Source: Microbacterium sp. (GTDB lineage Bacteria; Actinomycetota; Actinomycetes; Actinomycetales; Microbacteriaceae). Taken from it: a DNA stretch of 64,000 bases. Both the position numbers and the translations under genes were made by a program. Below the pieces are notes generated by a model. It did no database searches and was not told where the DNA came from. It was given only the letters and a program-made list of their open reading frames with translations. This document shows positions 45,880 through 49,398 of the stretch, one piece after another. The stretch's first letter is position 1. Every line of letters starts with the position of its first letter. Location: assembly GCA_019510305.1 (NCBI GenBank), contig JAEKKN010000032.1:62001-126000 (forward strand), given 5' to 3'.

Positions 45880-49398
<3,519 letters not shown>

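Follow-up and report, generated by a model that had tools for sequence, protein, structure and literature searches.

An in-frame TGA in the dnaE gene of a Microbacterium draft genome is probably a base error

The dnaE gene of a Microbacterium draft genome is interrupted in the assembled sequence by a single TGA, and the locus raises the question of whether the strain carries this stop in the gene for its replicative polymerase (DnaE1) or whether the draft is in error. The question was examined in the window, the whole stretch of 64,000 nucleotides that was analysed (positions 62001-126000 of contig C16, G000:C16). The draft consists of 86 contigs and 3,975,550 bases (completeness 99.97%, contamination 0.68%), and the nearest named relatives are Microbacterium.

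The gene extends over 45880-49398 on the plus strand, with the TGA as codon 731 counted from the start codon, ATG 45880 (Table 1). The sequence at 48058-48087 reads CGTCGCGCGATG TGA AAGAAGAAGAAGTCC. The dnaE frame is open on both sides of this codon with no indel and yields two open reading frames, 45880-48072 (730 aa) and 48124-49398 (424 aa, starting with ATG). By Pfam analysis, PHP, DNA_pol3_alpha and the finger domain (profile positions 1-143 of 166) were found before the stop, and HHH_6 and the OB fold after it. The order of domains expected of DnaE1 (PHP, DNA_pol3_alpha, finger, HhH, OB) is present along the frame by Pfam and NCBIfam; the single continuous reading frame also expected is broken, as assembled, at codon 731. 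The NCBIfam DnaE model NF004226 ended at profile position 705 in the first piece, which alone scored 1069 bits (cut-off 1002), and restarted at position 707 in the second; therefore, the stop's own position alone is missing. Codon-usage scores per codon were nearly equal before and after the stop (0.46 and 0.45), which excludes a chance break of the reading frame. The stop falls in the RRAM-KKKK block, which presumably binds the incoming nucleotide. This block aligned at codon 731 with Gly in the solved DnaE chains 7pu7_A, 5lew_A and 2hpi_A, and matches to chains 7pu7_A and 5lew_A covered dnaE in full or up to residue 923. The claim of the sequence-only reading that dnaE is intact and free of indels apart from a single in-frame TGA at codon 731 was thus confirmed by sequence, profiles and a gap-free alignment within the species.

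Table 1. Features of the dnaE locus, numbered from the first letter of the window.
Feature	Position	Strand	Basis
dnaE first part: 730 codons then TGA; PHP, palm/thumb, most of finger domain	45880..48072	+	ORF list, Pfam, NCBIfam
In-frame TGA, codon 731; site of an invariant small residue (Gly, rarely Ser) in the RRAM-KKKK block of the finger domain	48070..48072	+	Relatives, structure alignment
dnaE remainder: 441 codons and normal stop; end of fingers, HhH, OB fold, C-terminal part	48073..49398	+	Pfam, NCBIfam
First in-frame ATG after TGA; restart there would drop 17 residues (732-748)	48124..48126	+	ORF list

The locus was compared with that of a sister genome of the same species (G166), a single contig of 4,191,385 bases in which dnaE is intact. 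Around dnaE the two genomes aligned gap-free for 6,516 bases at 99.26% identity, and dnaE is part of a 51.5-kb block in which the two are collinear; therefore, the stop is not explained by an indel or a misjoin. Within the gene 19 of the 1,173 codons differed, comprising 18 synonymous changes, the one nonsense change and zero missense changes, and the relaxed constraint expected of a pseudogene was not found. With 28 genus loci as outgroups, the derived state of the 18 synonymous changes was assigned to our draft for 7 and to the sister for 4, and was unclear for 7. The stop was derived in our draft, another base being present in 28 of the 28 outgroups. Computed gene-wide, the possible single-base changes in dnaE stand at 7755 missense to 2463 synonymous, such that the 7 synonymous changes on the side of our draft would be accompanied by about 22 missense changes if constraint were lacking; none was observed. 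As judged from these sequences, dnaE is a gene that was fully constrained until very recently, or still is. The missing missense changes would therefore mean that the stop is very recent, or wrong, or no bar to a full-length protein.

Codon 731 was next read in relatives; in G166 it encodes Gly. Among 80 fetched relatives it was GGC (59), GGT (17), GGA (2) or AGC (2), that is, Gly in 78 and Ser in two distant ones, and in further genus loci it was Gly in 29 of 29, with residues 722-741 invariant (109 relatives in all, in two sets that may overlap). Comparison of this codon in G166 and the relatives read thus agreed with the earlier statement that relatives have Gly for 78 of the 80 fetched, and disagreed with it for the two that have Ser. 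A search of the genus gave a dnaE match in 294 of 295 genomes, and no stop was found inside dnaE in 149 of 149 rows other than our own (148 genomes) among the matches listed. An intact copy is therefore present in a near-identical genome (G166), and the change is private to one assembly relative to the 149 other rows listed. An independent case of the same truncation was likewise not found among the 120 protein database relatives listed of 8,000 scored, which were clustered at 90% identity such that a cluster could hide a truncated case. Two short relatives (745 and 729 aa) were rejected because they are 'partial' records whose contigs measure 2,287 and 2,564 bases.

By elimination and from the constraint on the gene, we consider it probable (about 0.8) that the TGA is a single wrong base in the draft consensus. 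The living strain would then carry an ordinary sense codon at position 731 and make full-length DnaE1. The miscalled base is what we infer, and a mutation present in only part of the sequenced culture would look identical. The proposal that a base error is the simplest reading found support in that no second dnaE1 was detected in the 86 contigs, the relatives read have Gly or Ser, no UGA-decoding tRNA was seen among the 46 tRNA matches and RF2 was unchanged over the 350 residues compared. Thus, the stop is likely an artefact, and new biology is unlikely. For M. smegmatis, PMC1852416 reports that resequencing of 73 interrupted genes exposed sequencing errors in 28; all 28 were indels, and the method saw no miscalls.

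The identity of the stop weighs the other way. Of 10,539 single-base changes in dnaE, 321 make a stop (231 TAG, 56 TAA and 34 TGA); when restricted to G-to-T changes, the counts are 66 TAG, 8 TAA and 8 TGA. A random miscall to a stop would thus give TGA only about once in ten, which counts against error, and TGA, described in PMC7918605 as the leaky stop of enteric bacteria, is the codon most to be expected if a stop is tolerated.

We then examined whether nonsense changes occur in other genes of the draft. By this approach, dnaE alone among 395 sister genes was found to have a private stop in our draft, and in the reverse comparison (395 of 468 own genes) no private stop was detected in the sister. 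As the sole nonsense change in 402,564 bases, the TGA lies in an assembly that is not visibly error-ridden, which is mildly against error; real pseudogenes were equally absent from the 395-gene sample. Frame-breaking indels affected 10 genes when the comparison was made one way and 11 when it was reversed. In seven compared genes (matches on C16 and C86), G166 had an insertion of 1-2 bases and a shorter frame, possibly from indel errors in the sister assembly. Four consecutive N at G000:C86:184192-184195 point to scaffolding or to sequence that was withheld.

For the survey, three contigs (547,434 bases) were used, and 395 of 514 predicted sister genes were compared (402,564 bases; 55 genes inside the window), the remaining 119 lacking a match that reached 90% identity across 90% of the gene length. 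Three C16 genes appeared at first to have a private TGA, suggestive of a wider in-frame pattern. Two of these, one of which encodes a penicillin-binding protein (window 25198-27018), were rejected as stops upstream of true starts: the upstream stretch had a negative coding score, and the protein proper began after the stop. Four further cases on C86 (three TAA or TAG, one TGA) were rejected on negative upstream coding scores. Gene starts were trimmed by coding score, which left only dnaE and could hide a true stop near a gene start.

The main rival to a base error is a genuine nonsense codon of very recent origin, with UGA readthrough, by near-cognate tRNA-Trp or an unseen suppressor, supplying enough full-length DnaE1 for the strain to live. 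We regard this as unlikely. It would account for a leaky stop codon, TGA, that only a minority of the random stop-making changes in this gene produce (34 of 321), and for a dnaE that has not decayed. In PMC7918605, UGA is described as leaky in E. coli and Salmonella with tryptophan inserted, prfB changes can strongly suppress TGA in B. subtilis, and an in-frame stop under purifying selection, the state seen here, is taken as a sign of readthrough. The means of decoding UGA were, however, not apparent. Neither a UCA anticodon nor tRNA-Sec was detected by ARAGORN among the 46 tRNA loci matched with Rfam in our draft; this set is incomplete, lacking tRNA-Tyr and tRNA-Ala(CGC) of the sister, such that an unassembled suppressor is possible. 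The tRNA-Trp and three tRNA-Gly (UCC, CCC and GCC) were identical to those of the sister, as was RF2 over the 350 residues compared. Thus, no tRNA or release-factor change permitting UGA decoding was found in the 46 matches and RF2 of a draft that lacks some tRNA genes. Broad suppression would also be costly, since TGA terminates 383 of 468 gene predictions on the three contigs, and no other private in-frame TGA was found among the 395 genes compared (547,434 of 3,975,550 bases). A readthrough-stimulating RNA fold 3' of the stop was rejected, as folding was unremarkable (z -1.10; 28 of 200 shuffles as stable). Tryptophan, moreover, would be placed at a site where all 109 relatives read (from sets that may overlap) have Gly or Ser.

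Taken together, the identity of the stop as TGA and the lack of any other nonsense error in the sample lean toward readthrough, which stays below a base error owing to the placement of tryptophan at a Gly/Ser site of an essential enzyme. More doubtful still is the fuller form in which the TGA is real, synthesis of the chromosome-replicating DnaE1 depends on ribosomes passing a UGA within the nucleotide-binding finger motif, and the efficiency of termination sets the amount of DnaE1.

Two other tRNA genes were noted. The tRNA at G000:C72:23016-23088, assigned as Leu(UAA) by ARAGORN, is 74 nt, lacks the long variable arm usual for tRNA-Leu and is identical in the sister. The tRNA-Lys(UUU) of our draft, located on C75, had no close match in the single-contig G166, where only tRNA-like matches of 77-79% were found.

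A copy replaced by another dnaE1 had been among the explanations offered by the sequence-only reading, alongside a base error, readthrough and a gene working in two pieces. When the assembly was searched with each dnaE piece, no second dnaE1 was found in the 86 contigs, and a 29-base probe around the stop, with the first codon base open and at most 3 mismatches, had one location only in the draft. The only other C-family match was a DnaE2-type gene outside the window (C16, about 51.8-55.0 kb), with 32% identity to dnaE over the first piece and an open frame of 1,151 aa. Its best NCBIfam match was NF004225, error-prone DNA polymerase, at 917.6 bits for the 701 residues supplied, just below the whole-protein cut-off of 939. 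Roughly 52 kb of C16 separate this gene from dnaE1. In mycobacteria, DnaE1 is essential for viability and DnaE2 is non-essential, as stated in PMC10421592 and PMC3919608; by analogy, the same would apply to Microbacterium.

An intact second dnaE1 could nonetheless reside in an unassembled part of the genome, with the present copy a fresh pseudogene. The draft is in 86 contigs without at least two tRNA genes of the sister, and a table row of PMC3919608 records two DnaE1 in one Actinobacterium. Against these points, no contig held a fragment of a second copy, dnaE showed no decay beyond the stop, and the gene sits within the block collinear with the sister. We consider this explanation very improbable.

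Harder still to credit is a polymerase made of two chains, one holding residues 1-730 and the other arising from a translation restart at 48124 or further on. Both frames are open with an in-frame ATG at 48124, and PMC3919608 describes a cyanobacterial DnaE that is encoded as two pieces and joined through an intein. By contrast, the break here is inside the finger domain, a restart would drop residues 732-748, of which 732-741 are invariant in the 29 genus loci, and no stop was found in dnaE of other genus genomes among the matches listed. Restart features were not found at 48124, and Pfam and NCBIfam scans of both pieces detected no intein halves or extra domain at the break. Least credible of all is that DnaE2 or another polymerase took over replication and dnaE1 is dying: the DnaE2-type gene is open and on the same contig, but 0 missense versus 18 synonymous differences separate dnaE1 from that of the sister.

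A base error would have the practical consequence that a pipeline calls an essential gene a pseudogene in this genome, a lesson for annotation. A real stop would make for a striking case, that of an essential replicative polymerase dependent on stop-codon readthrough. No report of a nonsense or stop codon in Microbacterium dnaE was found in the literature searched.

Among known systems, the locus resembles the interrupted genes of M. smegmatis mc2 155 (PMC1852416) in that a conserved actinobacterial gene is cut in a deposited genome and intact in relatives. It differs in that the 28 errors there were indels proved by resequencing, whereas the error here would be a substitution. With the genes interpreted as readthrough cases in PMC7918605 it shares an in-frame stop, constraint on both sides and TGA as a leaky stop; unlike these, it is confined to one genome, at a codon for which the relatives read have Gly or Ser, with no other private stop among 395 genes. 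Similarly to the split cyanobacterial DnaE, two open frames encode DnaE, but here there is no intein and the parts lie in the same frame and place, one codon apart. In domain order the locus is like the replicative DnaE1 itself (C-family DNA polymerase III alpha), with PHP, polymerase core, HhH, OB and C-terminal part in sequence, from which the present gene differs in that one codon is TGA.
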